Shown: in pieces, positions 1 through 28,963 of the stretch | How positions within the stretch are numbered: the first letter of the stretch is position 1 | Layout: each line of letters opens with the position of its first letter | Source of the DNA: an uncultured Bacilli bacterium | Lineage (GTDB): Bacteria > Bacillota_I > Bacilli_A > RF39 > UBA660 | NCBI GenBank assembly: GCA_947627435.1 | Contig: CANQWB010000013.1 | Location: 1-32,905, forward strand | DNA: 32,905 bases | Reading direction: 5' to 3' | Translations under genes and position numbers: made by a program | Notes under the pieces: generated by a model | The model's database searches: none | Seen by the model: the letters and a program-made list of their open reading frames with translations, nothing else | What the model was told of the DNA's origin: nothing

Positions 1-158
1 GTTTAAAAGAGGGTAAAAGTATTGGTTTAGAAGAAGGAAAGATAGAGAATCAAAAAGAAGTAGCAAGAGCGATGTATAAAGAAGGAATCCCAATTGAAGT
101 GATTTCAAAATGTACGTCACTATCGATTGCTGAAATTGAAGTGTTAAAAGAATCATAA
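1..158 (+). CDS. C-terminal fragment of an Rpn/PD-(D/E)XK-type transposase-like nuclease (truncated by window edge)
   Basis: Frame from nt 3 reads LKEGKSIGLEEGKIENQKEVARAMYKEGIPIEVISKCTSLSIAEIEVLKES*, the typical C-terminal tail of this family; stop at 156-158. Confidence 0.6.
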   Translation, partial: LKEGKSIGLEEGKIENQKEVARAMYKEGIPIEVISKCTSLSIAEIEVLKES

Positions 159-285: not shown

Positions 286-314
286 TTGATAATTCAAATA
301 AAACGTGTTATACT
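286..314 (+). promoter_or_regulatory. Sigma-A-type promoter for the pilin operon
   Basis: TTGATA (286-291), 17 nt spacer, TATACT (309-314), about 30 nt upstream of the ATG at 346. Confidence 0.65.
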
Positions 315-345: not shown

Positions 346-522
346 ATGAAAGAAGTAACAGGAGAAGCAAATATGACTGTTGTAACCATCATTTTGATTG
401 GTGTTATTGTTGCAGTTGCTACACCAATTATTACAAATATGATGAATAATACAAGAGAAAGAAGTGAATGTCATAACAACGGTGGTATTTGGGAAAATGG
501 ACAATGTACTCAAGCTCAATAA
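346..522 (+). CDS. Small Flp/class III-like pilin candidate (58 aa)
   Basis: ATG after a ggtgg RBS; MKEVTGEANMTVVTIILIGVIVAVATPIITNMMNNTRERSECHNNGGIWENGQCTQAQ; short polar N-terminus ending in G-E, one hydrophobic helix, small tail. Absent from the ORF track because of its size. Confidence 0.65.
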   Translation: MKEVTGEANMTVVTIILIGVIVAVATPIITNMMNNTRERSECHNNGGIWENGQCTQAQ

Positions 523-553
523 AAATCAGACATAATTTTAGGTGGTGTAGGAT

Positions 554-1000
554 ATGAGACAAGCGATTGGAAGTACTTTTCTCTATAATGTGATTATTAT
601 TTTTATTGTAATCACTTTTTGTTTCCTAGCGGCAACATTAAGTTATATGAAATCTTACAAAATGAATGGTAAGATTGCAAATTTATTGGAAAAGTATGAA
701 GGTTATAACACATTATCTGCAGCAGAAATTGAAACTTCACTTAGCAATTTAGGTTATCGTATCAGTAAAGATGGTAATATAAGTTGTTCAGAGAGAAAAC
801 ATAATGGAAAAACCTATTCTCCAATTAAAGAATTTGGAACAAATTATAAATATTGTATCTATGAATATCCAAAAAAAGATGGATATTTTACCTATGGAAT
901 TGTAACATATATTTATATGGATATTCCTATAGCAAGCGGTACATTTTCACTTCCTGTTTATGCAGAAACAGAACGTATTTATGAATTTACGCAGAAGTAA
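554..1000 (+). CDS. TadE/TadF-like pseudopilin, paralog of the next ORF
   Basis: Short polar N-terminus, hydrophobic helix, small extracellular domain with YCIYEY and IPIASGTFSLPVYAET motifs shared with 1012..1434. Confidence 0.5.
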   Translation: MRQAIGSTFLYNVIIIFIVITFCFLAATLSYMKSYKMNGKIANLLEKYEGYNTLSAAEIETSLSNLGYRISKDGNISCSERKHNGKTYSPIKEFGTNYKYCIYEYPKKDGYFTYGIVTYIYMDIPIASGTFSLPVYAETERIYEFTQK

Positions 1001-1011
1001 GAGGTGATGAA

Positions 1012-1434
1012 ATGAAAGAATCCATTGCAAATGCATATATATTCAACATCGTAATTGTTTTTGTTGTAATCTTTATTTTCTTTTTTGCAGGTTCATTAAC
1101 ATATTCAAAAGCATTTAAAGTAAAGAATAGAATTGTAGATATTATTGAAAAGTATGAAGATTATAACACAGATGCGGTTACTGAAATTTCTTCAACATTA
1201 GGAGAAATGGGTTATCGTGTAAATACAAGTAACAAAGGATGCGATATACGTAATGGAAAAGAATCATTGACTATGACTTTTAATTCTTATCGTTATTGTG
1301 TTTATGAATATGAAACACCAAAAGGTAAATATTATGGTGTTGCAGCCTACATGTATTTTGATTTACCAATCATAGGGCAGTCTTTAGAATTTCCTGTATA
1401 TGGGGAAACCAAAATACTAGGCATTTTAAGATAA
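1012..1434 (+). CDS. TadE/TadF-like pseudopilin, paralog of the previous ORF
   Basis: Shares I(V)xxxEKYExYNT, GYR, YRYCVYEY and DLPIxGxxxxFPVYxET patterns with 554..1000; RBS gaggtgatga. Confidence 0.5.
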   Translation: MKESIANAYIFNIVIVFVVIFIFFFAGSLTYSKAFKVKNRIVDIIEKYEDYNTDAVTEISSTLGEMGYRVNTSNKGCDIRNGKESLTMTFNSYRYCVYEYETPKGKYYGVAAYMYFDLPIIGQSLEFPVYGETKILGILR

Positions 1435-1454
1435 AAAGGGAGGATATCAGTCTC

Positions 1455-2459
1455 ATGAATGTTATTATAGCAAACAAGCAGCAATCAATGTTACAAAATC
1501 TCGGTATTGATATCATTAAGACTTTAGAAGGAGAATTTGATGTTGATGATATTGTGTCACAATTTCGAAATTTCTTTTTTCAAAGAATGATTTTAGACAT
1601 TACTGCAATCAAAAATTATAAAGATATAAGAACATTACAAAAATTATCTATAGCATTAGATATGGATAAAGTTATTTTATTATTAGATGATTCTGAAGAA
1701 AGCGGTTCTAATGAATACTTGTCTAAATTGATTTCAATGGGAATTTATAACTTTACAAAAAATGTAGAAGGTATTATGTATTTATACAATAATCCAAATA
1801 CATATCGTGATGTTGCCCATATTCATCAAATCGACAATAACCAACCACAACAAGTAGTAGTAGAAAAACATGTTGAAGTAGAACCAATAGTTGGAACAAA
1901 AATTATTGGAGTAAAAAATGTAACCAAACAATCTGGTGCAACTACTTTAATTTATATGATGGTAAAACAATTAGAAAAAAATTATTCTGTGGTAGCTTTA
2001 GAGATCAATAAAAGCGATTTTCGCTATTTCAACGATAAAAAACTAATTTCTATTCCAAATACAGAACTCTCTGATACAATTTCTAAGTATAGCTATTGTA
2101 ATACGATTTTGATTGATATTAACGATAGCAAAGAAGCTGAAGACTTATGTGATGAAGTGCTTTATTTAGTAGAACCATCTATCATTAAATTAAATAAATT
2201 AATGCTTGTTAATAGTAATGCATTCAAAGAACTTAAAAATAAAAAAATCATTTTAAATCAAAGTTTATTAAATGCAAAAGATGTATTGGATTTCGAATAT
2301 GAATCTGGTTCAAAAATTTATTACAACATGCCACCACTTGATGAACGAGAAAAAAGCATTCATGCATTAAACTTATTATTAGTAAGATTAGGTTTTACAA
2401 AGCAACAAACAGATGAACAAGAAAAGAAAAATAGTATTTTAGGTTTGTTTGGAAAATAA
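1455..2459 (+). CDS. TadZ/CpaE-like pilus localisation ATPase-like protein
   Basis: Receiver-like N-terminal region followed by a degenerate deviant Walker A (IIGVKNVTKQSGATTLIYMM), typical of TadZ/CpaE-type ParA relatives. Confidence 0.55.
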   Translation: MNVIIANKQQSMLQNLGIDIIKTLEGEFDVDDIVSQFRNFFFQRMILDITAIKNYKDIRTLQKLSIALDMDKVILLLDDSEESGSNEYLSKLISMGIYNFTKNVEGIMYLYNNPNTYRDVAHIHQIDNNQPQQVVVEKHVEVEPIVGTKIIGVKNVTKQSGATTLIYMMVKQLEKNYSVVALEINKSDFRYFNDKKLISIPNTELSDTISKYSYCNTILIDINDSKEAEDLCDEVLYLVEPSIIKLNKLMLVNSNAFKELKNKKIILNQSLLNAKDVLDFEYESGSKIYYNMPPLDEREKSIHALNLLLVRLGFTKQQTDEQEKKNSILGLFGK

Positions 2460-2463
2460 AACA

Positions 2464-2492
2464 TTGACAAACAAAGAAAAAAAAGGTATAGT
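2464..2492 (+). promoter_or_regulatory. Strong sigma-A promoter upstream of the T4SS genes
   Basis: TTGACA (2464-2469), 17 nt, TATAGT (2487-2492). Confidence 0.75.
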
Positions 2493-2500
2493 AATAGTGT

Positions 2501-2516
2501 TAAAGCAAAAGCTTTA
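2501..2516 (+). repeat. Inverted repeat at the predicted 5' end of the T4SS transcript
   Basis: TAAAGC-AAAA-GCTTTA perfect 6 bp stem just downstream of the 2464/2487 promoter. Confidence 0.55.
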
Positions 2517-2542
2517 TAGAAAGTTTTATAGGAGGTTTTCAA

Positions 2543-2899
2543 ATGTTGAACGTATTAAAAATGGTAACTTGTAATGGATTAAATGGATCAATTGATTATA
2601 TTGTTCCTGGAACAATTAGTACAGTAATCACAATTATTAAAATTGGGATCCCAATTTTATTGATCATCTTTGGTATGATTGATCTTGGAAAAGCTGTTAT
2701 GTCAAATGATGAAAAGGAAATGAAGAGTTCCCAAACAAGATTAATTAAAAGAATTTTATATGCCGTAATTGTATTCTTCATTGTTGCAATTGTACAATGG
2801 ATATTCCAAATTGTAGATGCCGATGTTGTAGAAGAAAAAGGTGGAACAAAAAGTTGTCTTAACTGCTTTATCAACGGTAATTGTACTACTACTGAATAA
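2543..2899 (+). CDS. TrbC/VirB2-like two-helix membrane protein
   Basis: Two hydrophobic helices separated by a charged loop (DLGKAVMSNDEKEMKSSQTRLIKR); aggagg RBS; adjacent to VirB6/VirB3/VirB4 homologs. Confidence 0.55.
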   Translation: MLNVLKMVTCNGLNGSIDYIVPGTISTVITIIKIGIPILLIIFGMIDLGKAVMSNDEKEMKSSQTRLIKRILYAVIVFFIVAIVQWIFQIVDADVVEEKGGTKSCLNCFINGNCTTTE

Positions 2900-2994
2900 T
2901 AAATTTCAAAATTTAAAAAGTAATAAGATAAATATTTCTTATTCTTTTTTTTTATGTTATAATGTATATGTGGAAAAATATATGGGTGATTGAG

Positions 2995-3378
2995 ATGAAA
3001 AAAACAGTGAAAATTATAAGTATTATTATCATGTTATTAATGATTTGTAATATAGAAAATGTAGGAGCAAGTGATCAAGTAACCGGTTGTAATCTTTTAG
3101 GCGATAACACTACTCCAATTGTACAGTGGATAATTGATCTGATTCAAATTGCAGTTCCAATAATAATTATTATTATGACAATCATTGATTTTACAGGAAT
3201 TGTATTATCTGGAGAAGAAAAAAATTTTAAAGCTGCAGGAAGCAAATTATTGAAAAGGTTAATTATTGGTGTTGTGATTATTCTATTACCGATGTTATTA
3301 GCATATATTATTGACTTAAGCGGTGTCTTAGTACCCTATGGTATTGATCGAGGCCAAATATTTTGTTCGTTATTTTAA
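2995..3378 (+). CDS. Second TrbC/VirB2-like membrane protein with signal peptide
   Basis: ATG at 2995 preceded by gggtgattgag; signal-like N-terminus, then two helices with loop SGEEKNFKAAGSKLLKRL. The ORF-track start at 2962 lies inside an extended -10 (TGtTATAAT, 2955-2963). Confidence 0.55.
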   Translation: MKKTVKIISIIIMLLMICNIENVGASDQVTGCNLLGDNTTPIVQWIIDLIQIAVPIIIIIMTIIDFTGIVLSGEEKNFKAAGSKLLKRLIIGVVIILLPMLLAYIIDLSGVLVPYGIDRGQIFCSLF

Positions 3379-3394
3379 AGAAAGGAGGGTTTAA

Positions 3395-5521
3395 ATGACA
3401 GAATCATGGATTTTAGACGGGGTTCGTAATGTATTTGGAGTAATTGATAATATTATTTTTTCATTAATTGCAATTGTATACGACATTATATTACAAATTA
3501 CCAAGATTGAAATATTTTCACCAGATAGCAAAAGTGTTCAAGATATTACAGGTAGAATTTATGGCTTACTTGCCATTATTATGTTATTTAAAGTTTCTTT
3601 TTCTTTAATTTCTTATTTAGTCAATCCAGATGGAATGACTGATAAATCTAAAGGTGCTCAAAAAATCATAGCGAATGTATTGATAGTACTGATGTTGATT
3701 ATAATAACTCCAACTGCTTTTACAAAATTATATCAAGCACAAAATGCCATTCTTGAAGATAATATTATTCCCAAATTTATTTTGGGTAGGCCAGAGGAAA
3801 CATTAGAGGGTAATAAGAGCTATTATATGTCATCCAAATGTGAGGAGGAAGGATTTAACATGTCTTCCACCAATACAGATGGAAATTTTATTTCTCTTTT
3901 AATTTTTAGACCTTTTTATCAAATAGAGTCATCAAGGGGGAATAGTAGAGATGACATTGCTTCTTATTGTGAAATTGGAACAAATGGAAATGCTCAAGTA
4001 GCACTATATACATTGAATCTTTCTATTTTAAATTCAGCACCAAATGGAATAAAAGATACATATGTTATAGATTATAAATTTTTTCTTTCAACTATAACAG
4101 GAATTATTGTTTTACTCATTTTCATTTCATTCTGTTTTGATATTGCCGTACGTTGTATTAAATTAGGATTTTTGCAAATTATTGCACCAGTGCCTATCAT
4201 ATCATATATAGATCCAAAATCTGGTAAAGATGGAATGTTTAAAAAATGGTTGAAAGAGGTAGGTAAAACATGGGCATCTTTATTTATACGTTTAGTAGGA
4301 TTGTTCTTTGCGGTTAGTATTATTGAATTGATTGTAAACCAAAATATATTTGCACAAGTAGGAAGTCATAAACTATGGGTAGAATTATTTGTTATTATCG
4401 GTGCTTTCATATTCGCAAAACAATTGCCAAAATTGATAGAAAATATTTTAGGTATTAAATTAGATAGTCATTTGATATTAAATCCAATCAAAAAAATCAA
4501 AGAAGAAGCTCTTGGAGGAAAAACAATTAGTAGTGTTCCAGGAAAAGCATTGGGTACTACAACTGGAATGATAGGTGGAGCGATTGCAGGACATATTGCT
4601 GGACAACAAGTAGGTATGGCTAAAAGAGGAACCATCATAGGTGCTGTAGGTGGTATGCAAAACGGTTTCAAAGAAGGTAAGTTCTCATTTACGAAAGGTA
4701 TGCAAGAGCAATATAAAAACCTAACGGGTAATGAGATGGCTAGACTTTCTGTATCCAAACTTTTAGTGCATGATGCAGCTGAACTTGAAGTTAAAAAAAT
4801 TAAAGACAACTTGAGTCTTGCTTACGCAAACTTAAATGATCGCCGATCTGCATTAAATGACTCTGAAAGAATGAGTTCTGAACTCGCATTGACACTTAGC
4901 AATAAGGGATACAATGTCCATGATATATCAGGTACTCAAAATCAAGTGAATCATAATATAGCAGATCAAACTGCTAAGATTGAAGAATTGAGAAAAAATA
5001 GTGCAAGTGAAATAGATAAATATCAAGATAGTATCAATAAATTTAATCAAGAAATGGAAAGATATAATTCGGCTAAAAAAATATTAAGTGAACCGTCATC
5101 TTCTGTTATCGACCCTAAAACAGGACGTTCTATTGATGCACCTAAACGTTTAGACGCAGAAAATATTATTAAACAATTTGAAAATAACGAAGGAGCATAT
5201 TTAAAACAGATTCAATTAGACCGTGATCGTGCTGAAGAATCTCATCGTCGATATCATCAAGACATTTCACGTGCAGAACAAGTGCTAGAAGGTTATAAAG
5301 AAGATTATAAGTTCCTTGAAAGATATGTATCAAATAAGAATTATGAAGATGAAATTAGAACTGAAATTAGTGCAATCGAAAAAGATATTGAGACATTCAA
5401 AAGTCAAAAAGGACAAACAGAAAGATTTGGACAATTGGATCGATCACCACAAGGAGATTATAGAAAGGCAGAAGCTAACCAAAGAAAGATGGCAAATAAA
5501 CATGGCATCAAACCAAGATAA
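3395..5521 (+). CDS. VirB6/TrbL-like polytopic T4SS membrane protein with long coiled-coil C-terminus
   Basis: Multiple N-terminal TM helices, glycine-zipper stretch (GTTTGMIGGAIAGHIAGQQVGMAKRGTIIGAVGG), then charged coiled coil; precedes PrgI and VirB4. Confidence 0.65.
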   Translation: MTESWILDGVRNVFGVIDNIIFSLIAIVYDIILQITKIEIFSPDSKSVQDITGRIYGLLAIIMLFKVSFSLISYLVNPDGMTDKSKGAQKIIANVLIVLMLIIITPTAFTKLYQAQNAILEDNIIPKFILGRPEETLEGNKSYYMSSKCEEEGFNMSSTNTDGNFISLLIFRPFYQIESSRGNSRDDIASYCEIGTNGNAQVALYTLNLSILNSAPNGIKDTYVIDYKFFLSTITGIIVLLIFISFCFDIAVRCIKLGFLQIIAPVPIISYIDPKSGKDGMFKKWLKEVGKTWASLFIRLVGLFFAVSIIELIVNQNIFAQVGSHKLWVELFVIIGAFIFAKQLPKLIENILGIKLDSHLILNPIKKIKEEALGGKTISSVPGKALGTTTGMIGGAIAGHIAGQQVGMAKRGTIIGAVGGMQNGFKEGKFSFTKGMQEQYKNLTGNEMARLSVSKLLVHDAAELEVKKIKDNLSLAYANLNDRRSALNDSERMSSELALTLSNKGYNVHDISGTQNQVNHNIADQTAKIEELRKNSASEIDKYQDSINKFNQEMERYNSAKKILSEPSSSVIDPKTGRSIDAPKRLDAENIIKQFENNEGAYLKQIQLDRDRAEESHRRYHQDISRAEQVLEGYKEDYKFLERYVSNKNYEDEIRTEISAIEKDIETFKSQKGQTERFGQLDRSPQGDYRKAEANQRKMANKHGIKPR

Positions 5522-5553
5522 ACAAAAAAATATAAGTAAAAGGGGATGGATAA

Positions 5554-5871
5554 ATGAATTTTTTGATACCGGCAAATTCAAAAAAATCAATGATGATATT
5601 TGGGCTATTTTACCCATTTGATCTCATATTATTTGGAAGTGGCATTGGTATTACATTATTACTAATGATGTTTCTTCCAATTAGTGATACAATGTTGGCA
5701 CTTATTTCTATTGCACCAGCATTGATAACAGGTTTTCTGGTCTTTCCAGTGCCTAATTATCACAATGTATTGACAGTTATAATAGGGGTTTGGAATTTCT
5801 TTACAACACGACAAAGATTCGTGTGGAAAGGTTGGTGTGTAACAGATGAAGAACAAAAAGAACAGAAGTAA
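5554..5871 (+). CDS. PrgI family (VirB3-like) protein
   Basis: About 105 aa, two TM helices, terminal YHN...FFTTRQRFVWKGW pattern typical of PrgI; directly upstream of VirB4. Confidence 0.7.
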   Translation: MNFLIPANSKKSMMIFGLFYPFDLILFGSGIGITLLLMMFLPISDTMLALISIAPALITGFLVFPVPNYHNVLTVIIGVWNFFTTRQRFVWKGWCVTDEEQKEQK

Positions 5872-6394
5872 ATATACAGAACAATTTGTACCTATTAAAA
5901 GTATTACAAATGGTATGATTATATTGGACAGTAATGAAAAAGTAAGTGGAATCAAAATTATGCCAAGGAACATTTTCATTGCTGATTACGACACACAAAC
6001 AGCAATCATTAATAATCTAAAAAATGTGTATAACATGATTGATTATGAATTTTGGATTATTGCAGCAGATCGTCCAGTAGATATTAATGTATATTTATCA
6101 CAATTACAATTACTATTTAATTCTGTAAATGATCAAGTAAAGAGAAAATTGATTATGGAAGATATTAATAAAGCAAATTTGTTTATGAATAACAATATTG
6201 TAGATACAGAATATTTCTTATTGTTTAAAGAAAAAAATAATGATGTTATTGCTAAAAGAATTCGTCAATTGATTAATGCTTTTGCAAGTGCAGGACTAAA
6301 TTCTCATCAGGTTACCAATGATGACTTAAGAATTATACTAGACAATTTCTTAAATGGTGGTCAGACGACTACGTTTGGAACGGTGGTGGCATAA
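5846..6394 (+). CDS. VirB4/TraE N-terminal domain encoded as a separate ORF
   Basis: FVPIKSITNGMIIL... resembles the N-terminus of Gram-positive VirB4/ConE proteins; stop overlaps the next ATG (TAATG). Confidence 0.6.
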   Translation: MKNKKNRSKYTEQFVPIKSITNGMIILDSNEKVSGIKIMPRNIFIADYDTQTAIINNLKNVYNMIDYEFWIIAADRPVDINVYLSQLQLLFNSVNDQVKRKLIMEDINKANLFMNNNIVDTEYFLLFKEKNNDVIAKRIRQLINAFASAGLNSHQVTNDDLRIILDNFLNGGQTTTFGTVVA

Positions 6395-8178
6395 TGGATG
6401 TAAAAAGTCAAATTGCTCCAAAAGGTCTTGAATTTAAATCCAATTCCTTTATTATCAGTGATAAATATGCCACAATATTAACAGTAATTTCCTATCCACG
6501 ATATATTCAACCAGGATATCTATCTTCATTAACAAGTATGTCTGGAATCAAAGTTGTCATTAAACATATTCCTTTACCATTTAGTGTAATTAGTAAAATG
6601 TTAAACAAAGAAATTGCGGACTTAAAAGTAAGATTTCAAGATACAAACGATCGTACGATACAAGAAAGAATTCGTCAAGATTATGAATCTTTAGAACAAT
6701 TTATTTCACAATTGGCTGCATCACAAGCAAAAATTTATGATTTTCAAATGCATATTATGATTACAGCAAATAGTGAAGATGAATTAAACACTAAGAAATT
6801 ACAAGTACGCAGTTACTTAGAAGCAATGGAAATGAGAGCGTTCCCATTGCGATTTGAACAAGAAAAAGTATTAAAATCAATTTTACCAATTTTTCCGAGC
6901 CAAGATATTGAATCTAGAATCGGAACACCAATTCCAGCTCCTACTATTGCGGCTATGTATCCATTTATATTTGATAGTATTAAAGATCCAGGACTTTCTG
7001 CATTACTTGGTGTAGACTTTTCCGGAGGAGTTATTCTATTCAATCAATTTTTATATCAAATTCGAAAAGAACACAACCGTAATAATGCCAATATGATTAT
7101 TTTAGGAACATCTGGTAGTGGAAAATCCACTGCTGCAAAAATATTACTAAGAACACATATCCGTAACAATTGTCAGTTAGTAATTATTGATCCAGAAGGA
7201 GAACTAGAAGATATGGCACGACGTTATGGAGGAGATTTCATCGACCTTGGAAAAGGTGGAGAATTTGGTATGGTCAATCCACTAGAAGTTATTATTGATG
7301 CCGATGATGAAGAAATCGAAGGTGGCTTAGGTTATACAGTTTTAACGAGAACACTACAAAGTATTAAAGCGTTCATGAAATATTATGATCCTAGAATTGA
7401 AGAAGATGTTCTTAACATGTTTAGTGAAGTAGTACAAGAAACTTATAGACGTTTCAATATTAGTTTTGAATCAGATTTTACACAATTGAAATCAATAGAT
7501 TATCCAACCTTTAAAGATGTTTATGCAACTATTAAAGGACGTTTAGCTTCTATGACGGAACCAACCCATGAAAAAGAAATCATGGAAAAATTAGAATTGA
7601 AAGTTCGCCCAATCGTAAAAGAATTAAAATATTATTTTGATGGGCATACAACTATTACATCTCAAAGTGATTTCATTGTGTTCAATATTCGTGAACTTAT
7701 GAATGCAGATACAAATATAAGAAATGCATTATTCTTTAATATTTTGAAATATGCTTGGGGTCTTACATTAGATAAAAGAGTCAATACTGTATTAATGGTA
7801 GATGAAGCACATGTGTTATTAAGTGGTAATAATACACTTGGGGCTGACTTCTTGGCACAGATTCAAAGAAGATCTAGAAAATACAATACGGGAACTATTA
7901 TTATTACACAACAACCAAGTGATTTCAGTAATCCAGATGTAATCACACAAGGAAAAGCTATCTTTGATAATGCTTCTTATTATTTAGTCATGGGACTGAA
8001 AAAACAAGCCGTAGAAGATTTATCACAATTGATAGATTTAAATGATAATGAAAAGGAAAATATCAAAAGATACAATCAAGGGGATGCGTTATTTGTGTGT
8101 GGTAGTAGAAGAATGCAGATTAGTATAATTGTAACAGAACAAGAATTAGATTCCTTTGGAAGTGGTGGAGGACTATAA
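6394..8178 (+). CDS. VirB4/TraE/ConE-like T4SS ATPase
   Basis: Walker A GTSGSGKST, Walker B VLMVDEAHVLL, DPEGE, and the IITQQPSDF motif. Confidence 0.9.
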   Translation: MDVKSQIAPKGLEFKSNSFIISDKYATILTVISYPRYIQPGYLSSLTSMSGIKVVIKHIPLPFSVISKMLNKEIADLKVRFQDTNDRTIQERIRQDYESLEQFISQLAASQAKIYDFQMHIMITANSEDELNTKKLQVRSYLEAMEMRAFPLRFEQEKVLKSILPIFPSQDIESRIGTPIPAPTIAAMYPFIFDSIKDPGLSALLGVDFSGGVILFNQFLYQIRKEHNRNNANMIILGTSGSGKSTAAKILLRTHIRNNCQLVIIDPEGELEDMARRYGGDFIDLGKGGEFGMVNPLEVIIDADDEEIEGGLGYTVLTRTLQSIKAFMKYYDPRIEEDVLNMFSEVVQETYRRFNISFESDFTQLKSIDYPTFKDVYATIKGRLASMTEPTHEKEIMEKLELKVRPIVKELKYYFDGHTTITSQSDFIVFNIRELMNADTNIRNALFFNILKYAWGLTLDKRVNTVLMVDEAHVLLSGNNTLGADFLAQIQRRSRKYNTGTIIITQQPSDFSNPDVITQGKAIFDNASYYLVMGLKKQAVEDLSQLIDLNDNEKENIKRYNQGDALFVCGSRRMQISIIVTEQELDSFGSGGGL

Positions 8179-8207
8179 AATAATATAAATAGTTTGGTGG
8201 TGGTACT

Positions 8208-10553
8208 GTGGAAGATGAAGAATTAGAACAAGAAGAGATTCAAGAAGAATCTCTTGAAATAGTTGAGGAAGAAATTGAACAACCAGAAGAAGAAATCGTA
8301 TCCTCTTCTTCCACTGCAGCCCCAAATTTTTTTCATGATTTCAGTTCTAAAATCAGCAGTGATACTGGTAAACGAATTGCAGACACGATTCGTGCACATA
8401 AAAATAATCAGATGCAAAAACCGCAATCTAATGTAGATTCTGCTGAAACACCAGATAGTAATTCTGATGCAAGTACAGATAACGATTCTGATACAAGAAT
8501 AGATATTAGTTCTAATAATAACCAAAATCAAAAACAGAGTACAGTAAAAAAAGTACATGATGCAGCAACAGAAGTAGCTGGACAAGCTGTTTCAAAAGCT
8601 GCTTCCGCGGCATTACAAGCAGAAGGTGTTCCAACTCCGGTTGCAGATATAGTAGGATCTGTTGCAGGATATGCTGTAGAAGAAAAATTAAATAAAAAAA
8701 CAATTTCTCAAAAAATATTAGAATTTTTGGGATTTCCTGATGTCATTACAGTGAGTCCTCGCTTGTCACGAATTATTGTTGGTGGTACCATCTCTACCAT
8801 AACAACGCTTATAGTATTCATACTTTTATTTTCGATTTTTAATAATAAAAATAGTAATAACAAATTTCCATTATTGAGTTATCTTGCATATGGTGTAGTA
8901 GATGATAACAATGTATCACAAACTCTAACAGAATATTTGATGTCAAGTGGCTATTGTAAAAGTACAACTAATTGCTGGCAAACACCTGCATATGAATTTT
9001 ATGCTAGTTTTCGTAGTAAAATTGAAGATAAAATCAATGAGTTAGATGAAAAGTATAAAGGCTGTAATGTAGATAGTACCATAGGACTAAATGAGGAAGT
9101 AGCTGCTACATGGTTAGCTACATTGCTCTTTCATCGTGCCGAAGATGAATTATTATCATCGTATGGTTCAGAAAAATCTACCTCATTGGCACAATATAAA
9201 CAAGAAATGGATTTTTTAATAGATTCTACTTTTGGATTCGATGAGACCAATGATGAAGAAAATAATGCAGCAGGAAACAGCTGCCCTATGATTGATATGG
9301 ATAAATATCATGATAATATTACTAAACTTTCAGGTTATATTGATTTATATCGTGATGATTTAGAAATTAGTACATGGTCATCTACAGAAAAAGAAGAAGC
9401 TTATGCAGAAATATTAAAAGAACGCGATGCTTATTTAGGTATTAATATTGGAATATCAGGAATTAGTGGTTATGCTGAATGTTCAGGTGTTACTGTAGGT
9501 AAGGTAGATAATAAGGGAAATATTATTGATATTATTGGAACATATTCATTAGAAGATTATATAGCTGGAGTTTTAACAGCAGAGTTTGATGGATATCCAA
9601 TAGAAGCTATGAAAGCCCAAGCTGTTGCAGCCAGAACATATGTGCTAAATAAAACTAACTCATGCCAAAATGTTATAGGTAATAGTTCATATACTCAAAA
9701 TTTCAAAGCAAATGCATCTGCTACTGCAAAACAAGCTACCAATGCAACTGCAGGGGAGATATTAGTAGATGCATTAGGAAATATTTTCTCAGCTGAATAT
9801 GATTCTTGGAATTGTAAAGGAAGTACTACATGTACATATACAAAAAAACCAAATGGTGAAAAACATACTGTAACAATTTCGAACAAATATCTATCAAGGG
9901 CAGCTGGTGGACATGGCCGAGGAATGAGCCAACTTGCAGCAGCCGATATGGCAGATAAGGGAAGTAATTATCGAGAAATATTATCATTCTTCTATTCGGA
10001 TGGGGTCCAAATCACAAATCTAACAAAAATGAGTGGACCTGGATTAAGTGCTGCAAATCCATATGGGTTCCGTAAACGTATTTCTCAACCAGCAAAAAAT
10101 AGCGAAGGCGCACAATTTTACTTTTCTAATTTGAATAGATCTTATAGTAGTGGATATACAGGACAATGTACCTGGTATGCCTATGGCCGTGCCAATGAAA
10201 TTTTATCAGATGTCGGTAGTAATCTAAAATGGGATATTGCCAATAATGCAGGATTGTGGTACAGCACGAATTTACAAAATGGTGCTAGAGGATTTCAGTC
10301 TTCATCAGATTATACCAAACCAAAAGTAGGTGCAATTGTGGTATGGAAAAATGCTGGAGCACCTGGGCATGTTGCTATAGTAGAGGAAGTTCATGCAAAT
10401 GGAACTATCACGATTTCAGAAGCAAATATACCTACCAAAAAAAGTAATTCTAACCCATATGGATGGCAAACCGTTACTTTAACATTAGAAGAAGTACATC
10501 GACGTTGGAAATCGTATATATTTGCGGGATATATTTACTTGTTAGAATCCTAA
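8208..10553 (+). CDS. Membrane-anchored SpoIID-domain plus CHAP-domain peptidoglycan hydrolase of the T4SS
   Basis: GTG start; acidic cytosolic N-terminus, one TM, SpoIID motifs (LTAEFDGYPIEAMKAQAVAARTYVL; GHGRGMSQLAA), C-terminal CHAP motifs (GQCTWYAYGRA; GHVAIVEEV). Confidence 0.85.
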   Translation: MEDEELEQEEIQEESLEIVEEEIEQPEEEIVSSSSTAAPNFFHDFSSKISSDTGKRIADTIRAHKNNQMQKPQSNVDSAETPDSNSDASTDNDSDTRIDISSNNNQNQKQSTVKKVHDAATEVAGQAVSKAASAALQAEGVPTPVADIVGSVAGYAVEEKLNKKTISQKILEFLGFPDVITVSPRLSRIIVGGTISTITTLIVFILLFSIFNNKNSNNKFPLLSYLAYGVVDDNNVSQTLTEYLMSSGYCKSTTNCWQTPAYEFYASFRSKIEDKINELDEKYKGCNVDSTIGLNEEVAATWLATLLFHRAEDELLSSYGSEKSTSLAQYKQEMDFLIDSTFGFDETNDEENNAAGNSCPMIDMDKYHDNITKLSGYIDLYRDDLEISTWSSTEKEEAYAEILKERDAYLGINIGISGISGYAECSGVTVGKVDNKGNIIDIIGTYSLEDYIAGVLTAEFDGYPIEAMKAQAVAARTYVLNKTNSCQNVIGNSSYTQNFKANASATAKQATNATAGEILVDALGNIFSAEYDSWNCKGSTTCTYTKKPNGEKHTVTISNKYLSRAAGGHGRGMSQLAAADMADKGSNYREILSFFYSDGVQITNLTKMSGPGLSAANPYGFRKRISQPAKNSEGAQFYFSNLNRSYSSGYTGQCTWYAYGRANEILSDVGSNLKWDIANNAGLWYSTNLQNGARGFQSSSDYTKPKVGAIVVWKNAGAPGHVAIVEEVHANGTITISEANIPTKKSNSNPYGWQTVTLTLEEVHRRWKSYIFAGYIYLLES

Positions 10554-10564
10554 GGAGGATTTAT

Positions 10565-11230
10565 ATGAAATATAAAAAATGGTATTTAATATTGCCAATA
10601 TGTTTGTTATTAGTAACTGGTTGTGATGTTACATATCAAATTGAGTTTCAAGATGATAAAATCATTGAAACCAATACTTTCTATTTACCCAATAGCGAAT
10701 TAGAGAATGATGACATTGTTACTACTTTAGAAAAAAAAGCACTAAATTATACCATGAATACGGACTTTTTGATTTCTCCTAAAACAGATATTATCAGGGA
10801 AGAAAATCAAACGGGATACGCAGTAACAAATGAATATAGTTATAATGATTATAGTACTATAGACAACTGTTATGATGCATTTAATATCATAAAAAAAGAT
10901 GGAACTGTAACAATAAGTACTTCTAATCAATTTCAATGTTTTCAGAATTATAATGAACTCAATCAAGTGAAGATCATGGCAAAAGTTAACTATAAAGTTT
11001 CGCAACATAATGCAGATGAGGTAAAGAAAAATACCTATATTTGGTATATAGATAAAAATAATGCAGCTAGTAAGCCTATTCATCTTGTATTCAATTTAAA
11101 TCAAAAAATAAATAATTTTGCATTCACAAATTGGCAAACTTATGTTATAGTAATTGCATCATTCGTTATAATTGTGTTATTAGTTATATGGATGATTTCT
11201 AAAATATCAAAGAAAAACAACCAAATATAG
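10565..11230 (+). CDS. Lipoprotein with C-terminal TM helix (T4SS-associated)
   Basis: aggagg RBS before ATG 10565; lipobox LLVTGC; C-terminal hydrophobic helix and KISKKN. The track's 10463 start overlaps the upstream gene and lacks this context. Confidence 0.65.
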   Translation: MKYKKWYLILPICLLLVTGCDVTYQIEFQDDKIIETNTFYLPNSELENDDIVTTLEKKALNYTMNTDFLISPKTDIIREENQTGYAVTNEYSYNDYSTIDNCYDAFNIIKKDGTVTISTSNQFQCFQNYNELNQVKIMAKVNYKVSQHNADEVKKNTYIWYIDKNNAASKPIHLVFNLNQKINNFAFTNWQTYVIVIASFVIIVLLVIWMISKISKKNNQI

Positions 11231-11241
11231 GAGGTTTTGTT

Positions 11242-13329
11242 ATGAAATTAAAATTTAGAGCGGAAACAAAAGATGTCGTAATATTTATAATATTTTCAAT
11301 TGCCTTACTTTACTTTATTGCAATAGCAATTTTGAATGTAGTTGCATTCTTAAATGATTCGACCTTACATGGATTGAATCCGTTACCTGCTTTTCAAGGA
11401 CAATATTTAGCACCAACGATGGTATTCTATATTGCCTTCATGATTGCCATTATTACTGGTGTTTCATCTTACTTTTTTGAACGTGAAAAAGGTATTGGTT
11501 TTGCAACTGGAGGAAAAAAGGAAAATGGATATTCACATTGGGCAAAAGACAAAGAAATGAAAAAGCAATTAAAATTGGTTCATCCACATGATGAAAAAAG
11601 TGAATATGCTGGAATTCCACTAATCAATAATGGTCATGAACTGTGGGTAGACAATGGTGAGTATCACAATATTGTAATTGGTAGTACAGGATCTGGAAAA
11701 ACCGAAATGTTAGTACAACCAATGGTTAAAATATTAGCAAAAAAAGGGGAATCTATGATTATCACCGATCCAAAAGGTGAAATTTATGAAAACAATGCCA
11801 ATGAATTACGAGAAAGAGGATATAATATTGTATTATTGAACTTTCGTGATCCTCAAAACGGAAATTGTTGGAACCCACTTTCTTTACCATATGAATTATA
11901 CAAAAATGGAAATTCAGATAAAGCCAATGAGTTATTAGATGACTTAGCAAAAAATATTCTTTATGATGAATCTGCAAAAAATAACGATCCATTCTGGGAA
12001 AATACTTCAGCTGATTATTTTGCAGGATTGGCTTTAGCATTATTTGACGATGCCAAAGAAGAACAGATTAACTTAAATAGTATTAACTTAATGACAACTG
12101 TTGGAGAAGAAAAAATAGGCGGAACAACCTATATGAAAGAGTACTTTAGTGATAAAGATCAAAGTTCTCCAGCATACATCAATGTGGCAAGTACATTAAT
12201 GGCACCATCGGATACAAAAGGTAGTATTTTATCTGTATTTAAACAAAAGATAAAATTATTCTCTTCTAGAGAAAATCTATCAGAAATGTTATCTCGTAGT
12301 GATTTTGATATGGAGGATATCGGACGTAAAAAAACAGCGGTATTCATTGTTATTCAAGATGAAAAGAAAACATATCATTCACTTGTTACCATTTTCTTAA
12401 AACAATGTTATGAAACATTAATTCGAGTAGCACAAGAAACAGGTGGTAAACTATCTTATCGTACAAACTTCATTTTGGATGAGTTTGCCAATATGCCACC
12501 ATTAAAAGATGTTACTACTATGGTTACAGCAGCACGTAGTCGTCATATTCGTTTTACCTTTATTATTCAAAACTTCGCACAATTATATCAAGTGTATGGA
12601 AAAGAAAATGGTGAAACAATTAAAGGTAACTGTGGTAATATCATTTACTTAATTAGTAGTGAACTTGCTGCACTGGAAGAAATTAGTAAGATGTGTGGAG
12701 AAGTAAAATCCAAAAAAGATGATAAAACAGCAAGTACACCACTTGTAACTGTAAGTGATTTACAACGTATGAAATTTGGATCTATGATTTTACTTCGTAC
12801 TAGGTGTATGCCATTTAAGACTACATTAACACCAAATTATGATATGGTAAAACAAGGCCTTTGGGGACATGATTACGGAAAAGCTAAATATCCACAAAGA
12901 GAAAAACAACCAGTAAAATTATTTGATTTAAAAGCTGTAGTGAATGAAAAAAGACAAAAGAAAATGGATGATATGTTAAATGGAAAAGGTCCTATGCCAA
13001 ATATGTCAGGAATGCCAGGAATGCCGGGAATGGGATTTCCAAATATGCCAAGAATGTCAGGAATGGGTGTTCCAACACCAAATAATATGGGTAATAATAA
13101 CTTTAATGTGGATGATTTGGTAAAACGTATCGATGCTCAAATTGCAGCTTTAGAAGAAGAAGAGCGTAGAGAAAAAGAAGCACAAGAAAAAGCAAAGAAA
13201 GAAACAGAACAAACTACTATTATTTCGGAAGATTCTTCTATTAAAGAAATATCACAACCAAAATCAATTACCACAGATGAAATTACCGATGATCAGTTTT
13301 TTGATGATTTCTTTAGTGACGATGATTAG
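11242..13329 (+). CDS. VirD4/TraG-like type IV coupling protein
   Basis: N-terminal TM helices, Walker A GSTGSGKT, DPKGE, NFILDEFANMPPL, FIIQNFAQL; Met/Pro/Gly-rich C-terminal linker. Confidence 0.9.
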   Translation: MKLKFRAETKDVVIFIIFSIALLYFIAIAILNVVAFLNDSTLHGLNPLPAFQGQYLAPTMVFYIAFMIAIITGVSSYFFEREKGIGFATGGKKENGYSHWAKDKEMKKQLKLVHPHDEKSEYAGIPLINNGHELWVDNGEYHNIVIGSTGSGKTEMLVQPMVKILAKKGESMIITDPKGEIYENNANELRERGYNIVLLNFRDPQNGNCWNPLSLPYELYKNGNSDKANELLDDLAKNILYDESAKNNDPFWENTSADYFAGLALALFDDAKEEQINLNSINLMTTVGEEKIGGTTYMKEYFSDKDQSSPAYINVASTLMAPSDTKGSILSVFKQKIKLFSSRENLSEMLSRSDFDMEDIGRKKTAVFIVIQDEKKTYHSLVTIFLKQCYETLIRVAQETGGKLSYRTNFILDEFANMPPLKDVTTMVTAARSRHIRFTFIIQNFAQLYQVYGKENGETIKGNCGNIIYLISSELAALEEISKMCGEVKSKKDDKTASTPLVTVSDLQRMKFGSMILLRTRCMPFKTTLTPNYDMVKQGLWGHDYGKAKYPQREKQPVKLFDLKAVVNEKRQKKMDDMLNGKGPMPNMSGMPGMPGMGFPNMPRMSGMGVPTPNNMGNNNFNVDDLVKRIDAQIAALEEEERREKEAQEKAKKETEQTTIISEDSSIKEISQPKSITTDEITDDQFFDDFFSDDD

Positions 13330-13384: not shown

Positions 13385-13675
13385 ATGATATCTAATATTT
13401 CCATATCAGATTTGTTACAAATCACAAGTCCTATTCACTTAATTGATTTAAGAAGTGTACAAAGTTATAATAATAATCATATGGATGGAGCAGTGAATAT
13501 TCCTTATGAAAAATTAATTGCCAATCCAAGCCATTATTTAAATCCGAATATTCGTTATTATATTTATTGTCAAAAAGGACTTACTAGTAATAAAGTATGT
13601 CAAATTTTAACAAAAATGGGTTATAAAGTAACAAACATTATAGGTGGATATGAAGAATGGATATTGCATAATTAG
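13385..13675 (+). CDS. Single-domain rhodanese-like sulfurtransferase
   Basis: LIDLRS, HMDGAVNIPYE, active-site loop CQKGLTS, GGYEEW. Confidence 0.85.
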   Translation: MISNISISDLLQITSPIHLIDLRSVQSYNNNHMDGAVNIPYEKLIANPSHYLNPNIRYYIYCQKGLTSNKVCQILTKMGYKVTNIIGGYEEWILHN

Positions 13676-13804: not shown

Positions 13805-14389
13805 ATGGAAGCAATAATTCAAAATATAATTGAACTATTAAAAGATATTGTGGGAAACAGTAATTATCTGGTAAGTTTATTTACAGGAATTTTTATTATT
13901 GTGTTAGAATCAGTAATACCTGTTTTACCGCTTGCATTGTTTATCGCAATTAACATATTGGTATTTGGAAATTTAGTTGGATTTTGTTTATCTTGGTTTG
14001 CAACTATTTTGGGTTGTTCACTTAGTTTTGCAGTATTTCGTATTCTTAAAAACAAAATTCAACCAAAATTAAAAAAAAGACAAGTAATTGAAAAATGTAT
14101 GGATAAAGTAGGACATATGAAATTTAGTAACTTAGTTATTTTACTTTCGATTCCATTTACCCCAGCTTTTTCCATTAATATTGGAGCGGGACTTTCTAAT
14201 ATGAAATATATTAAGTATTTATTTGCTTTAATTATTTCTAAAATATTTTTAGTATACTTCTGGGGCTATGTTGGTACTACTTTTGTTGATAGTATTACAG
14301 ATATTGGAATATTACTCAAATTAGGAAGTATGATTATAATCGCGTTTGTATTATCTAAAATTGTAATGTATAAATTTGATATTGATTAG
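13805..14389 (+). CDS. TVP38/TMEM64 (VTT domain) family membrane protein
   Basis: Polytopic; FxxxLESVIPVLPLALFIAxN and PFTPAFSINIGAGLSNM motifs typical of the VTT/DedA superfamily. Confidence 0.65.
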   Translation: MEAIIQNIIELLKDIVGNSNYLVSLFTGIFIIVLESVIPVLPLALFIAINILVFGNLVGFCLSWFATILGCSLSFAVFRILKNKIQPKLKKRQVIEKCMDKVGHMKFSNLVILLSIPFTPAFSINIGAGLSNMKYIKYLFALIISKIFLVYFWGYVGTTFVDSITDIGILLKLGSMIIIAFVLSKIVMYKFDID

Positions 14390-14400
14390 GAGGACGTTGT

Positions 14401-15468
14401 ATGGAGTATATTATAATTGGACTATTGGTTATTATTTTAATATTCGTAGTTATCTCTTTTATGAAAAGTACAAATGAATCTAATATTACAGAACGTATTG
14501 GAAAATTAGAAACAACTACCATAAAAGAATTGGGAGAATTTAAAAGTGATTTATCGCAAAATTTGAACAATGATTTTAATTCTTTAACAGAACGCATGGA
14601 TAATAGACTTCGTTTCATCAATGATCATGTCAATGAAAGATTAGACCAAAATTTTGAAAAAACCAATCAAACATTTACATCCGTATTAGAACGTTTATCA
14701 AAGATAGATGAGGCCCAGAAACAAATTGATCATTTATCTAGTGACATTGTATCATTACAAAGTGTTTTAACTGATAAAAAAACAAGAGGAATTTTTGGAG
14801 AAGTAAATTTAAAACATATTCTTACTAATGTATTTGGAGAACAGAATACGAAAGTATATCAATTACAATATACTTTAGAAAATGGTACTATTGTAGATTG
14901 TGCTTTGTTTGCACCAGAACCATTAGGATTAATTGGGATTGATTCCAAATTTCCACTTGAAAACTATCGTACGATGGTAGATAAAAATGTATCAAATGAA
15001 ATACGCGAACAAGCAGAAAAGATGTTTCATTCTGATATGAAAAAACATATCGATGCGATTGCTTCTAAGTATATTATCCCAGGAGTTACTTCTGATCAGG
15101 CCATTTTATTTTTACCTGCAGAAGCAATTTTTGCAGAAATTACAGCTTATCATACAGATATTATCGAATATGCTTATAAAAAAAGAGTATGGTTAACCAG
15201 TCCTACCACTTTAATTAGTACTTTAACGACAATTCAAGTCATTATGAAAAATATGGAACGAGATGCTTATGCATCCATCATTCATCGTGAATTAAAGCTA
15301 TTAGATGAGGAATTCAAACGTTATAAGGATAGATGGGACAAGTTATCTAGAAGTATTGAATCGGTTGGTCGTGATGTCAAAGATATTCATACCACGACAG
15401 AAAAAATTACGAAACGATTTGAATCCATTAATGATGTTGAAGTAGAAAAAATCGATCATAAAGAATAG
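14401..15468 (+). CDS. rmuC: RmuC family protein
   Basis: N-terminal TM, coiled coil, then RGIFGEVNLKHIL, DSKFPLENY, ILFLPAEAIFAEI, LTSPTTLISTL motifs. Confidence 0.88.
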   Translation: MEYIIIGLLVIILIFVVISFMKSTNESNITERIGKLETTTIKELGEFKSDLSQNLNNDFNSLTERMDNRLRFINDHVNERLDQNFEKTNQTFTSVLERLSKIDEAQKQIDHLSSDIVSLQSVLTDKKTRGIFGEVNLKHILTNVFGEQNTKVYQLQYTLENGTIVDCALFAPEPLGLIGIDSKFPLENYRTMVDKNVSNEIREQAEKMFHSDMKKHIDAIASKYIIPGVTSDQAILFLPAEAIFAEITAYHTDIIEYAYKKRVWLTSPTTLISTLTTIQVIMKNMERDAYASIIHRELKLLDEEFKRYKDRWDKLSRSIESVGRDVKDIHTTTEKITKRFESINDVEVEKIDHKE

Positions 15469-22970: not shown

Positions 22971-23030
22971 TGTATAGATATTTTAATGAAAATAGTGTAA
23001 AATAGAAATATAGAATAAAGGGTGAGGTAT

Positions 23031-24800
23031 ATGTTTGGAAAAATAATAGGAATTGATAATAATTTGGTTTTAGTAGAAATGAATCATTCCAATCAATATA
23101 AAGATATTATGAATAGACATGTATATTTAATCGATGATAGAACTGTAGTAGGCGAAATATCCGATATCAAAAATAATGTTGCATATATCATGTTACTAGG
23201 GGAAATGATAAACCAAAAATTTGTATTTGGAGTCATTAAAAAACCATCTTTTCAGTCAAAAGTGTCATTTGTATCTGATAAAGATGTTGAAAAAATCATT
23301 GGTGTTACAGATTATCATGAAGAAACAGATTTGTATATTGGTACGAGTCCTATCTATGAAAATATTCCAATTGGATTTCATATTAATGATTTTTTTAATA
23401 GTCATTTTGCTATTTTTGGATCTACTGGTGCTGGAAAGTCATGTGGAGTGGCGCGTATTATCCAAAATTTATTTTCTAAAAAAGTGCAAATTCCATATCG
23501 TGCCAGTTTGTTTATTTTCGATGCATATGGCGAATATCATAGTGCTTTTCATGATTTATATAAAACTGTTCCGGAAATTGCCTTTAAAGCATACACAACA
23601 GATATTCATTCACAGGATGAATTAATCAAAATCCCCTTATGGTTGCTTGGAGTAGATGACATTGCACTATTGTTAGGAGCAGAAAAACATTCACAATTAG
23701 TCATGATTGAAAAAGCTTTAAAACTTGTTACTGTATTTGCACGAGAAGAACAAATGGTATTAAAAATTAAAAATGATATCATCGCAAGAGCCATTTTAGA
23801 TATTTTATCGAGTGGTGGAACTTCTGCACAAATACGTGACCAAATATTCTCTGTTTTATCTCACTATAATACAAAAGAATTGAATTTAGAAACACCTGTT
23901 TTTCAACCTGGATATACAAGACCTTTGAAACAATGTTTGAATATTGATGCTAGTGGAAAAATTCGTGAAATGGAATTAATTGTTGATTTTATGGAGAAAT
24001 TTTTGACAGAAGATTACGAATTAACCTTACCAGATGGAAGTTTTTTATACACTTTGAAAGATTTACAAGATGCGTTTGATTTTGCTTTAATATCAGAAGG
24101 AATTTTTAGTAGTGAAAAAATTTATGATGAAGCCAATATCTTGAAAGTTAGATTACATGCTTTAGTAGCAAGTGATGATCGTTTTTATTTCGATTATCCT
24201 GAGTATATTGATCGTACTAGCTATATTAAAAAATTATTAACAGCATCTAATGGAAGAAAAGCCCAAATTATTAATTTTGACATTAATTATATTGATGATC
24301 GATTAGCAAAAAATATTACAAAAATTTATTCGAAATTACTATTTGATTTTTCTAAAAATATGAATCAACGTGCATCTATGCCTTTTCATATCATTTTAGA
24401 AGAAGCCCATCGTTATGTCCAAAATGATAATGATAAATTTTTATTAGGATACAATATATTTGAACGTATTACAAAAGAAGGTAGAAAGTATGGTGTCCTT
24501 TTAGGATTGATTTCACAAAGACCTTCGGAGCTTTCTGAAACTTCACTTTCTCAATGTAGTAATTTCCTCATTTTTAAGATGTTACATCCAGCTGATGTAG
24601 ATTATATTAAACAAATGGTGCCAAATGTAACGCAAGAAGTGATGAAACAATTGCGAATTTTACAACCAGGAACTTGTATTGCATTTGGTTCTGCCTTTCA
24701 TGTACCGGTATTAGTGAAAATGGATATGCCATCTCCTGAGCCATCTAGTAGTAATTGTAATATTTCTGCTTTATGGTTTGTACACAAGGATAAATCATAA
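23031..24800 (+). CDS. HerA-like DUF87 ATPase
   Basis: Walker A GSTGAGKSC, FIFDAYGEY, IILEEAHRYV, LISQRPSELSETSLSQC; ATG 23031 with ggtgagg RBS. Confidence 0.87.
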   Translation: MFGKIIGIDNNLVLVEMNHSNQYKDIMNRHVYLIDDRTVVGEISDIKNNVAYIMLLGEMINQKFVFGVIKKPSFQSKVSFVSDKDVEKIIGVTDYHEETDLYIGTSPIYENIPIGFHINDFFNSHFAIFGSTGAGKSCGVARIIQNLFSKKVQIPYRASLFIFDAYGEYHSAFHDLYKTVPEIAFKAYTTDIHSQDELIKIPLWLLGVDDIALLLGAEKHSQLVMIEKALKLVTVFAREEQMVLKIKNDIIARAILDILSSGGTSAQIRDQIFSVLSHYNTKELNLETPVFQPGYTRPLKQCLNIDASGKIREMELIVDFMEKFLTEDYELTLPDGSFLYTLKDLQDAFDFALISEGIFSSEKIYDEANILKVRLHALVASDDRFYFDYPEYIDRTSYIKKLLTASNGRKAQIINFDINYIDDRLAKNITKIYSKLLFDFSKNMNQRASMPFHIILEEAHRYVQNDNDKFLLGYNIFERITKEGRKYGVLLGLISQRPSELSETSLSQCSNFLIFKMLHPADVDYIKQMVPNVTQEVMKQLRILQPGTCIAFGSAFHVPVLVKMDMPSPEPSSSNCNISALWFVHKDKS

Positions 24801-28221: not shown

Positions 28222-28617
28222 ATGAAGAAAAAAGGATTTACATTAATAGAAATGATTGGTGTTGTACTCATTATGGGTTTGCTTACATTACTAATATTAC
28301 CATCAATTGTAAACCAATTAAGCGCCAAAAAAGAAGAGATCAGTCAAGCATCATTAAAGCTAATTTATGATGCAACAGATTTATATGTGAAAGAAAGAGA
28401 AAGTACATATACAATGACAACAGGATCAACCTATTGTATTACATTAGAAACACTAGTAAATGATGGAAAATTAAAAAATACAATAAAAGATTTTACGACA
28501 GAAAAAGAAATTCCATTGAATAAAGTTGTAAAAGTGACAGTGAATGAATATGAAGAGGGAGAATATGTATTAGTCAATTCTGGAGAATGTGAATCGACTA
28601 TTGTGATGGAAAAATAA
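28222..28617 (+). CDS. Type IV prepilin-like protein (131 aa)
   Basis: MKKKGFTLIEMIGVVLIMGLLTLLILP: prepilin peptidase site G|FTLIE. Confidence 0.85.
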   Translation: MKKKGFTLIEMIGVVLIMGLLTLLILPSIVNQLSAKKEEISQASLKLIYDATDLYVKERESTYTMTTGSTYCITLETLVNDGKLKNTIKDFTTEKEIPLNKVVKVTVNEYEEGEYVLVNSGECESTIVMEK

Positions 28618-28927: not shown

Positions 28928-28963
28928 TACTCCCTTTTTTTATTGTCTAAAGGAGAGATGTAT

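Follow-up and report, generated by a model that had tools for sequence, protein, structure and literature searches.

A probably domesticated pLS20-type conjugation machine on the chromosome of RF39 bacteria

What is a type IV secretion system (T4SS) with a coupling protein for, when no relaxase stands beside it? The question is raised by contig CANQWB010000013.1 of an uncultured Bacilli bacterium (GCA_947627435.1; RF39, UBA660), in which 13 genes run in one direction and with small gaps from flp to virD4, that is, from Tad-like pilin genes into a Gram-positive T4SS. The genome has 1.21 Mb in 55 contigs and is 87% complete; the window analyzed here is the whole of contig C13 (32,905 nucleotides). 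The initial annotation had described this gene set, the lack of a relaxase or integrase in the window and the chromosomal housekeeping genes directly after it. The open reading frame (ORF) calls returned the same genes, order and direction, library scans of the window found no relaxase, integrase or tRNA, and Pfam recognized the genes for rhodanese, a VTT-domain protein, RmuC and Lon directly 3′ of virD4. Here it is proposed that the locus is probably a domesticated pLS20-type conjugation machine of the RF39 lineage, a proposal that does not include its cargo.

A resident secretion system in the RF39 lineage

The family sample comprised 145 genomes of the order RF39, nearly one per genus. The relatives are metagenome-assembled genomes (MAGs) labelled Bacilli, Tenericutes or Mollicutes; a carrier of one locus, Candidatus Coprosoma intestinipullorum, has been assigned to the GTDB order RF39 (PMC8035907), and RF39 genomes are reduced (PMC6784871). 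VirB4 was present in 123 of the 145 genomes, and 121 had the resident (conserved) type, almost always as a single copy and with 63-94% identity. Of 288 genomes in another sample from the order, as far as listed all of the same family, 265 had a match, and five of these (G083, G094, G194, G271, and G284) had weak or mobile-type matches only. Matches outside the family, in a class sample of 296 genomes, reached at most 413 bits; complete copies within the family scored about 870-1315 bits.

The place of the locus, which the initial annotation had proposed to compare across related genomes, is mostly fixed: rhodanese comes next after VirD4 in 45 of 57 loci, often with the VTT and RmuC genes beyond, and a few loci lie elsewhere, such as those adjoining L32 in G099 and G190. 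VirB4 identity to the window tracks that of the housekeeping GTPase YqeH (Spearman rho 0.79, n = 107), which is not linked to VirB4 in the relatives mapped, and also that of CpaF (rho 0.66); in the YqeH comparison, the median identity was 75% for VirB4 and 43% for YqeH. The resident VirD4 copies form one clade (support 98/99). Long outgroup branches disturbed the VirB4 tree, which gave no firm proof of a single origin. The T4SS is a near-universal, vertically inherited and mostly same-place chromosomal gene set, and it combines features expected of domesticated machinery, being chromosomal, lineage-wide, and relaxase-free.

Relaxases of the MOBP type (PF03432) were not found in the genome under study, nor within 70 kb on the contig of any of the 121 resident VirB4s, many of these contigs being short; as a control, 17 of 25 divergent VirB4s of the same family had a MOBP relaxase within 20 kb. 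Neither MOBV nor MOBT was found near the resident T4SS in the relatives searched, and MOBT was not found in the genome under study. This genome has MOBV relaxases on contigs C1, C3, C20, and C26. On C26, a serine recombinase is directly followed by the relaxase, as in a putative mobilizable element, and on C1 and C20 the two lie some kilobases apart. With a single VirB4 and a single VirD4 detected in the genome, the resident machine could serve such MOBV elements in trans. The putative mobilizable elements with MOBV and a serine recombinase in this genome are at L193 (8910-12634), L192 (9292-19123), and L039 (18655, with C20:21038).

These data bear on the possibility that the locus is a decaying or recently inserted remnant of an integrative and conjugative element (ICE) or plasmid, with its relaxase hidden by the contig ends. 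The window is indeed a whole contig of an incomplete MAG, and its left end lies in a repeat-like Rpn ORF. The complete operon, however, stands on long contigs of many relatives, between chromosomal neighbors and with no relaxase, and its identity follows an unlinked housekeeping gene. Neither an integrase or recombinase nor a relaxase was found flanking the T4SS in the window, and no relaxase was found near the relatives' copies, whose unknown flanking ORFs were partly scanned for integrases, att repeats not being part of the search. A remnant is ruled out by the conserved locus, its chromosomal neighbors, the tracking of YqeH and the missing relaxase, so far as to be highly improbable. The initial view of a resident T4SS rather than an ICE is upheld, as neither an upstream relaxase or integrase nor variable, ICE-like positions were encountered in the relatives.

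The Tad motor and the pLS20-type operons

The initial annotation had also reported that no Tad motor was present. On contig C17 of this genome, the last genes are those for a TadE-like protein, CpaB, CpaF, TadB, and TadC, followed by the 5′ part of an ORF, and this part and the 3′ part of an ORF at the start of the window both look Rpn-like by eye, without a profile match. In the congener G138, tadC adjoins flp with no insertion. As the motor and one Rpn-like part stand at the end of C17 and the other Rpn-like part at the start of the window, the assembly most probably broke between tadC and flp, with the two contig ends presumably joining, and the absence of the motor would be a contig-edge artifact. 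The linked CpaF is an ATPase (T2SSE, 1e-26) that scores higher as VirB11 (110 bits) than as TadA (90 bits), and CpaB matches RcpC (5e-6). The linked TadB and TadC are unrecognized by Pfam and were named from their position, their similarity to pLS20 and to the G335 element described below, and a weak fold match. Upstream of TadE, there is a thioester-motif protein with the motif pair LCID and QAIIW and no Pfam match. A prepilin peptidase is encoded on contig C10, unlinked to the T4SS locus. The genome search suggested by the initial annotation found relaxases, the motor and the peptidase, none of them beside the T4SS in the window. The genome also has a second, canonical Tad locus on contig C20 (L039 9861-15019), with TadE, TadE, TadZ, CpaF, TadB, and TadC, whose TadZ showed no similarity to the linked TadZ-like protein in a profile comparison.

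A search of plasmids that started from the linked CpaF turned up conjugative plasmids of Gram-positives whose annotations include a thioester adhesin, CpaF/VirB11, two hypothetical proteins, VirD4 (CD1115), VirB6 (pLS20_p028), VirB3 (DUF5592), and an ATP-binding VirB4. Plasmids pLS20 of Bacillus subtilis natto, pZB18 of E. faecium and one of Paraclostridium bifermentans share with the RF39 locus a co-directional block of thioester adhesin, TadE-like protein, TadA/CpaF-VirB11, TadB/TadC-like proteins, small pilins, VirD4 (CD1115), VirB6 (p028), VirB3, and split VirB4, with an isopeptide-forming pilin-type protein in the place of the adhesin in pZB18. Profiles of the RF39 proteins matched pLS20 for CpaF (9e-55), VirD4 (7e-71), VirB4 (1e-41), TadC (3e-6), and TadE (7e-6), and weakly for VirB6 (9e-4) and TadB (2e-3); the VirB3 profile matched pZB18 (5e-6) and not pLS20 itself. 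The order TED-TadE-TadA-TadB-TadC is common to C17, G138, and pLS20, TED being the thioester adhesin, which pLS20 requires for efficient conjugation (PMC8092201). The pLS20 protein, with YCID as its published motif, was not matched by the RF39 thioester search pattern. An element in G335, from another Bacilli family, likewise has CpaF-TadB-TadC adjoining VirB6-VirB3-VirB4, and an ArdC-like gene by reading. The 98 kb plasmid CP074574.1 (L203) of the Mycoplasmatota strain zrk4 carries a T4SS with split VirB4 and then a Tad locus, and is classed in PLSDB as non-mobilizable despite its encoded VirD4.

The RF39 locus differs from pLS20, which is a plasmid with a MobP2/MobL relaxase, in being chromosomal, near-universal in its lineage and without a relaxase nearby. 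Its VirD4 stands at the end, whereas that of pLS20 stands before VirB6, and pLS20 counterparts of the RF39 CpaB, TadZ-like, SpoIID, and LppM-like parts were not found. Judged by gene content, the Tad plus T4SS composite is not a new architecture, because pLS20-type operons hold the same adhesin-TadA-TadB-TadC block plus the same T4SS genes. The novelty of the mix that the initial annotation had implied is, therefore, not retained, as the three plasmids and the G335 element share it. What is new is the fixation of such a machine without a relaxase across a whole lineage.

The two halves could alternatively be independent machines, with one operon for a Tad pilus and another for a T4SS lying side by side. 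A separate promoter-like site before virB2, the second Tad locus of the genome and the 22 of 145 genomes with only one of the two are in line with this. It is nevertheless unlikely: the TadA-TadB-TadC cassette lies inside pLS20-type conjugation operons in other species and families, the linked ATPase is nearer to VirB11 than to TadA, and CpaF and VirB4 strongly co-occur (both in 109 genomes, neither in 14, and one only in 22; Fisher p = 7e-7). The two are on the same strand and 7.7-13.6 kb apart in 49 of the 52 genomes with both on one contig. This pattern suggests that the two halves act as a single machine. Among the promoter-like sites on the coding strand, two of the top-scoring ones lie in gaps, one upstream of flp and the other between tadZ and virB2 (consensus only; 112 sites in the whole region versus 91 expected), and because of the second, the VirB genes may form a transcript with a promoter of their own.

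Parts of the machine and its possible cargo

The positions of the genes are collected in Table 1. Of the initial labels, VirB4 (AAA_10, 4e-12; TraG P-loop, 9e-11; VirB4_plasma, 356 bits), VirD4 (T4SS-DNA_transf, 3e-56; CD1115 family, above the NCBI cut-off), VirB6 (TrbL_4, 3e-5; pLS20_p028, 39.5 bits), and the SpoIID-CHAP protein were backed by Pfam and NCBIfam, and VirB2 weakly. The Flp-, TadE/F-, and TadZ-like proteins had no significant match (Pfam for those scanned; NCBIfam for Flp), and their names are suggested by size, topology, position, and context. The TadZ-like profile had no match against PDB, and the P-loop lysine is missing in 54 of 54 relatives checked. The split of VirB4 is genuine, into two adjoining genes with no frameshift, because the same two genes are found in 79 of 80 relatives; they overlap by 1-4 nt in nearly all. 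The lipoprotein gene was confirmed, and its start is most likely at 10565 rather than at 10463 as first annotated, because the lipobox comes after that methionine. Its predicted structure resembles LppM and not VirB8, and a VirB8 role for it was rejected.

Table 1. Features of the locus and its flanks (window coordinates)
Feature	Position	Strand	Basis or remark
Rpn/PD-(D/E)XK nuclease-type ORF, 3′ fragment	3..158	+	Truncated by contig start; family by reading, without profile match
Promoter-like TTGATA-17-TATACT, 5′ of flp	286..314	+	Consensus match only
Flp-like short pilin, invariant GE motif	346..522	+	By reading
TadE/F-like pseudopilin 1	554..1000	+	Present in 47/80 relatives; without Pfam match
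TadE/F-like pseudopilin 2	1012..1434	+	Present in 50/80 relatives; without Pfam match
TadZ/MinD-like, degenerate P-loop (lysine lost)	1455..2459	+	Label from context and topology
Promoter-like TTGACA-17-TATAGT, tadZ-virB2 gap	2464..2492	+	1 match versus 0.04 expected; consensus only
VirB2-like pilin a	2543..2899	+	Pfam/NCBIfam (weak)
VirB2-like pilin b	2962..3378	+	Pfam/NCBIfam (weak)
VirB6/TrbL-like channel protein	3395..5521	+	Pfam/NCBIfam
VirB3-like protein	5554..5871	+	Comparison with relatives and pZB18
VirB4 N-terminal part, separate gene	5846..6394	+	Comparison with relatives
VirB4 C-terminal part, motor domain	6394..8178	+	Pfam/NCBIfam, Walker motif
VirB1-like wall hydrolase, SpoIID and CHAP	8208..10553	+	Pfam/NCBIfam
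LppM-like lipoprotein, C-terminal membrane helix	10565..11230	+	Lipobox, fold model
VirD4 coupling protein, CD1115 family	11242..13329	+	Pfam/NCBIfam, Walker A
Rhodanese, conserved chromosomal neighbor	13385..13675	+	Pfam
VTT-domain membrane protein, chromosomal neighbor	13805..14389	+	Pfam
RmuC, conserved chromosomal neighbor	14401..15468	+	Pfam

The motors are conserved while the exposed parts diverge. Walker motifs are intact in VirB4 of 79/80, VirD4 of 67/67, and CpaF of 17/18 relatives, and the median identity to the window copies is 81% for VirB4, 74% for CpaF, 73% for TadB, and 68% for VirD4, versus 28-38% for VirB2, 34% for VirB6, 30% for the SpoIID-CHAP hydrolase, and 29% for the lipoprotein. 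The hydrolase slot swaps domains freely among relatives (SpoIID, M23, CHAP, C39, glucosaminidase, NlpC/P60), and the counterpart of VirB2-like pilin b in G138 has 410 aa, with a large additional N-terminal region. Gene order is not absolute, VirB6 being relocated behind the C-terminal VirB4 gene in G111 (L102). Many relatives' loci (L115-L157) have a membrane-anchored ORF of 360-417 aa between the virB2 genes and up to five VirB2-like genes, and a second VirB4 with 40% identity adjoins the resident one in G102:C18 (L055; 9075-13489).

As a mechanism, it is proposed that an ancestor of the RF39 lineage captured a pLS20-type Gram-positive conjugation machine, which would have been inherited vertically in the chromosome since. 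The Tad-type half, with the thioester-motif surface protein, TadE-like proteins, CpaB, CpaF/VirB11, TadB, TadC, and Flp-like pilin, would form a short pilus for contact or a platform of the adhesin kind, and the T4SS half, with VirB2, VirB6, VirB3, split VirB4, wall hydrolase, lipoprotein, and VirD4, would pass into a neighboring cell whatever substrate VirD4 selects. DNA, either chromosomal or in the form of relaxase-bearing elements moved in trans, may tentatively be named as the likeliest single cargo, since VirD4 scores above the cut-off of its family of conjugative coupling proteins and the operon contains no conserved effector gene.

The machine could instead export proteins, that is, effectors or toxins delivered into neighboring bacteria or host cells with the pilus providing contact. 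The lack of a conserved relaxase would suit this, as would a VirD4 combined with fast-diverging exposed parts, which fit varying targets. Protein as the cargo is all the same rather unlikely, with VirD4 in the conjugative CD1115 family and no effector-like gene conserved in the operon, although no dedicated effector search was made. That the machine carries neither cargo, or is a pilus only, is somewhat less likely again. Much of the operon (pilins, TadE-like protein, thioester-motif surface protein, hydrolases) would serve a pilus for adhesion or contact, with Tad-like and VirB2 pilins forming filaments and nothing translocated, but VirD4, which is not known to be needed for pilus building in the systems described, has been kept with an intact Walker A in every relative compared; a pilus alone is accordingly improbable. 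DNA uptake, a use considered in the initial annotation, is unlikely as the main role, because separate ComEA/ComEC and type IV pilus genes are present: ComEA, ComEC, and prepilin peptidase genes lie on C10 (L195 1762-4522 and 16255-17070), and the gene for a PilB-type ATPase is likewise outside the T4SS locus. The window itself encodes two type IV pilin-like proteins (N_methyl; 28222-28617 and 28943-31555), the latter of 870 aa with a glycine-rich ALK/LTK-type domain, and similar glycine-rich or pilin-like proteins are found on C10.

Several observations weigh against a single domesticated machine that transfers DNA. The main caution is that the halves can be separated: 22 of 145 genomes have one without the other, 10 with a Tad motor and no resident VirB4 and 12 the reverse, which is partly MAG incompleteness. 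In three genomes CpaF and VirB4 are 36-50 kb apart, and 57 further genomes have the two on separate contigs, in many cases probably through breaks in the assembly. The similarity of TadB and TadC to pLS20 is weak, the two have no similarity to the canonical TadB and TadC of C20 in the profile comparison, and the best structural match of the TadC model, EpsF, is not significant. VirB8 was not identified, region 215-430 of the SpoIID-CHAP protein having been outside the folding. In the VirB4 tree the resident copies do not all fall in one clade, a single clade not being rejected (AU p = 0.12). With no relaxase conserved with the machine, a DNA substrate would need another nicking route, and the MOBV relaxases are patchy across genomes.

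Comparison with other known systems

The best named family for the RF39 VirB4 is that of the Mycoplasma-type ICE T4SS (Mbov_0397 VirB4), with 356 bits over the full length and a cut-off of 590; these systems differ in being mobile, and their VirB4 model is in one piece of 894 positions. With Tad/Flp pili, the RF39 locus shares CpaB, CpaF, two platform-like membrane proteins, and Flp-, TadE-, and TadZ-like proteins, and it differs in an ATPase nearer to VirB11, in TadB and TadC without a Pfam match, and in its linkage to a T4SS. In two papers on pLS20 (PMC8092201, PMC11730352), the T4SSs of Gram-positives are said apparently to lack pili, whereas the data presented here point to TadA-TadB-TadC as a standard component of T4SSs of the pLS20 type.

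A literature search for relaxase-free domesticated T4SSs in Gram-positives, or for any T4SS in RF39, returned nothing to the point. A bacterial lineage, sampled here in about 145 genera, that keeps a relaxase-free pLS20-type machine with VirD4 makes the question of its cargo directly testable and also opens that of how small-genome gut bacteria exchange material.

A precedent is the archaeal Ced/Ted machinery of Sulfolobales, a chromosomal, relaxase-free conjugation-type machinery that works with type IV pili (PMC9905601, PMC11868833); domestication of conjugation machinery for DNA transfer was, to its authors' knowledge, unreported outside those archaea (PMC9905601, 2023). The window also encodes a HerA-like ATPase (23022-24800), with a second copy of about 50% identity in most family genomes. 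HerA was considered as a T4SS partner by analogy with the Ted locus and rejected, as it is present in 141 of 145 genomes irrespective of the T4SS, with no co-occurrence signal. Like Ced/Ted with its Ups pili, the RF39 locus is conjugation-type machinery in the chromosome with no relaxase, and it has weak NCBIfam matches to CedD and CedB; in contrast to it, the RF39 machine is bacterial and monoderm and has VirD4, VirB3, and wall hydrolases. By this analogy it is possible, if doubtful, that RF39 holds a bacterial counterpart of Ced/Ups, a captured machine and pilus, kept by almost all species of this uncultured gut lineage with reduced genomes, that would exchange cellular DNA with neighbors or move relaxase-bearing elements in trans.

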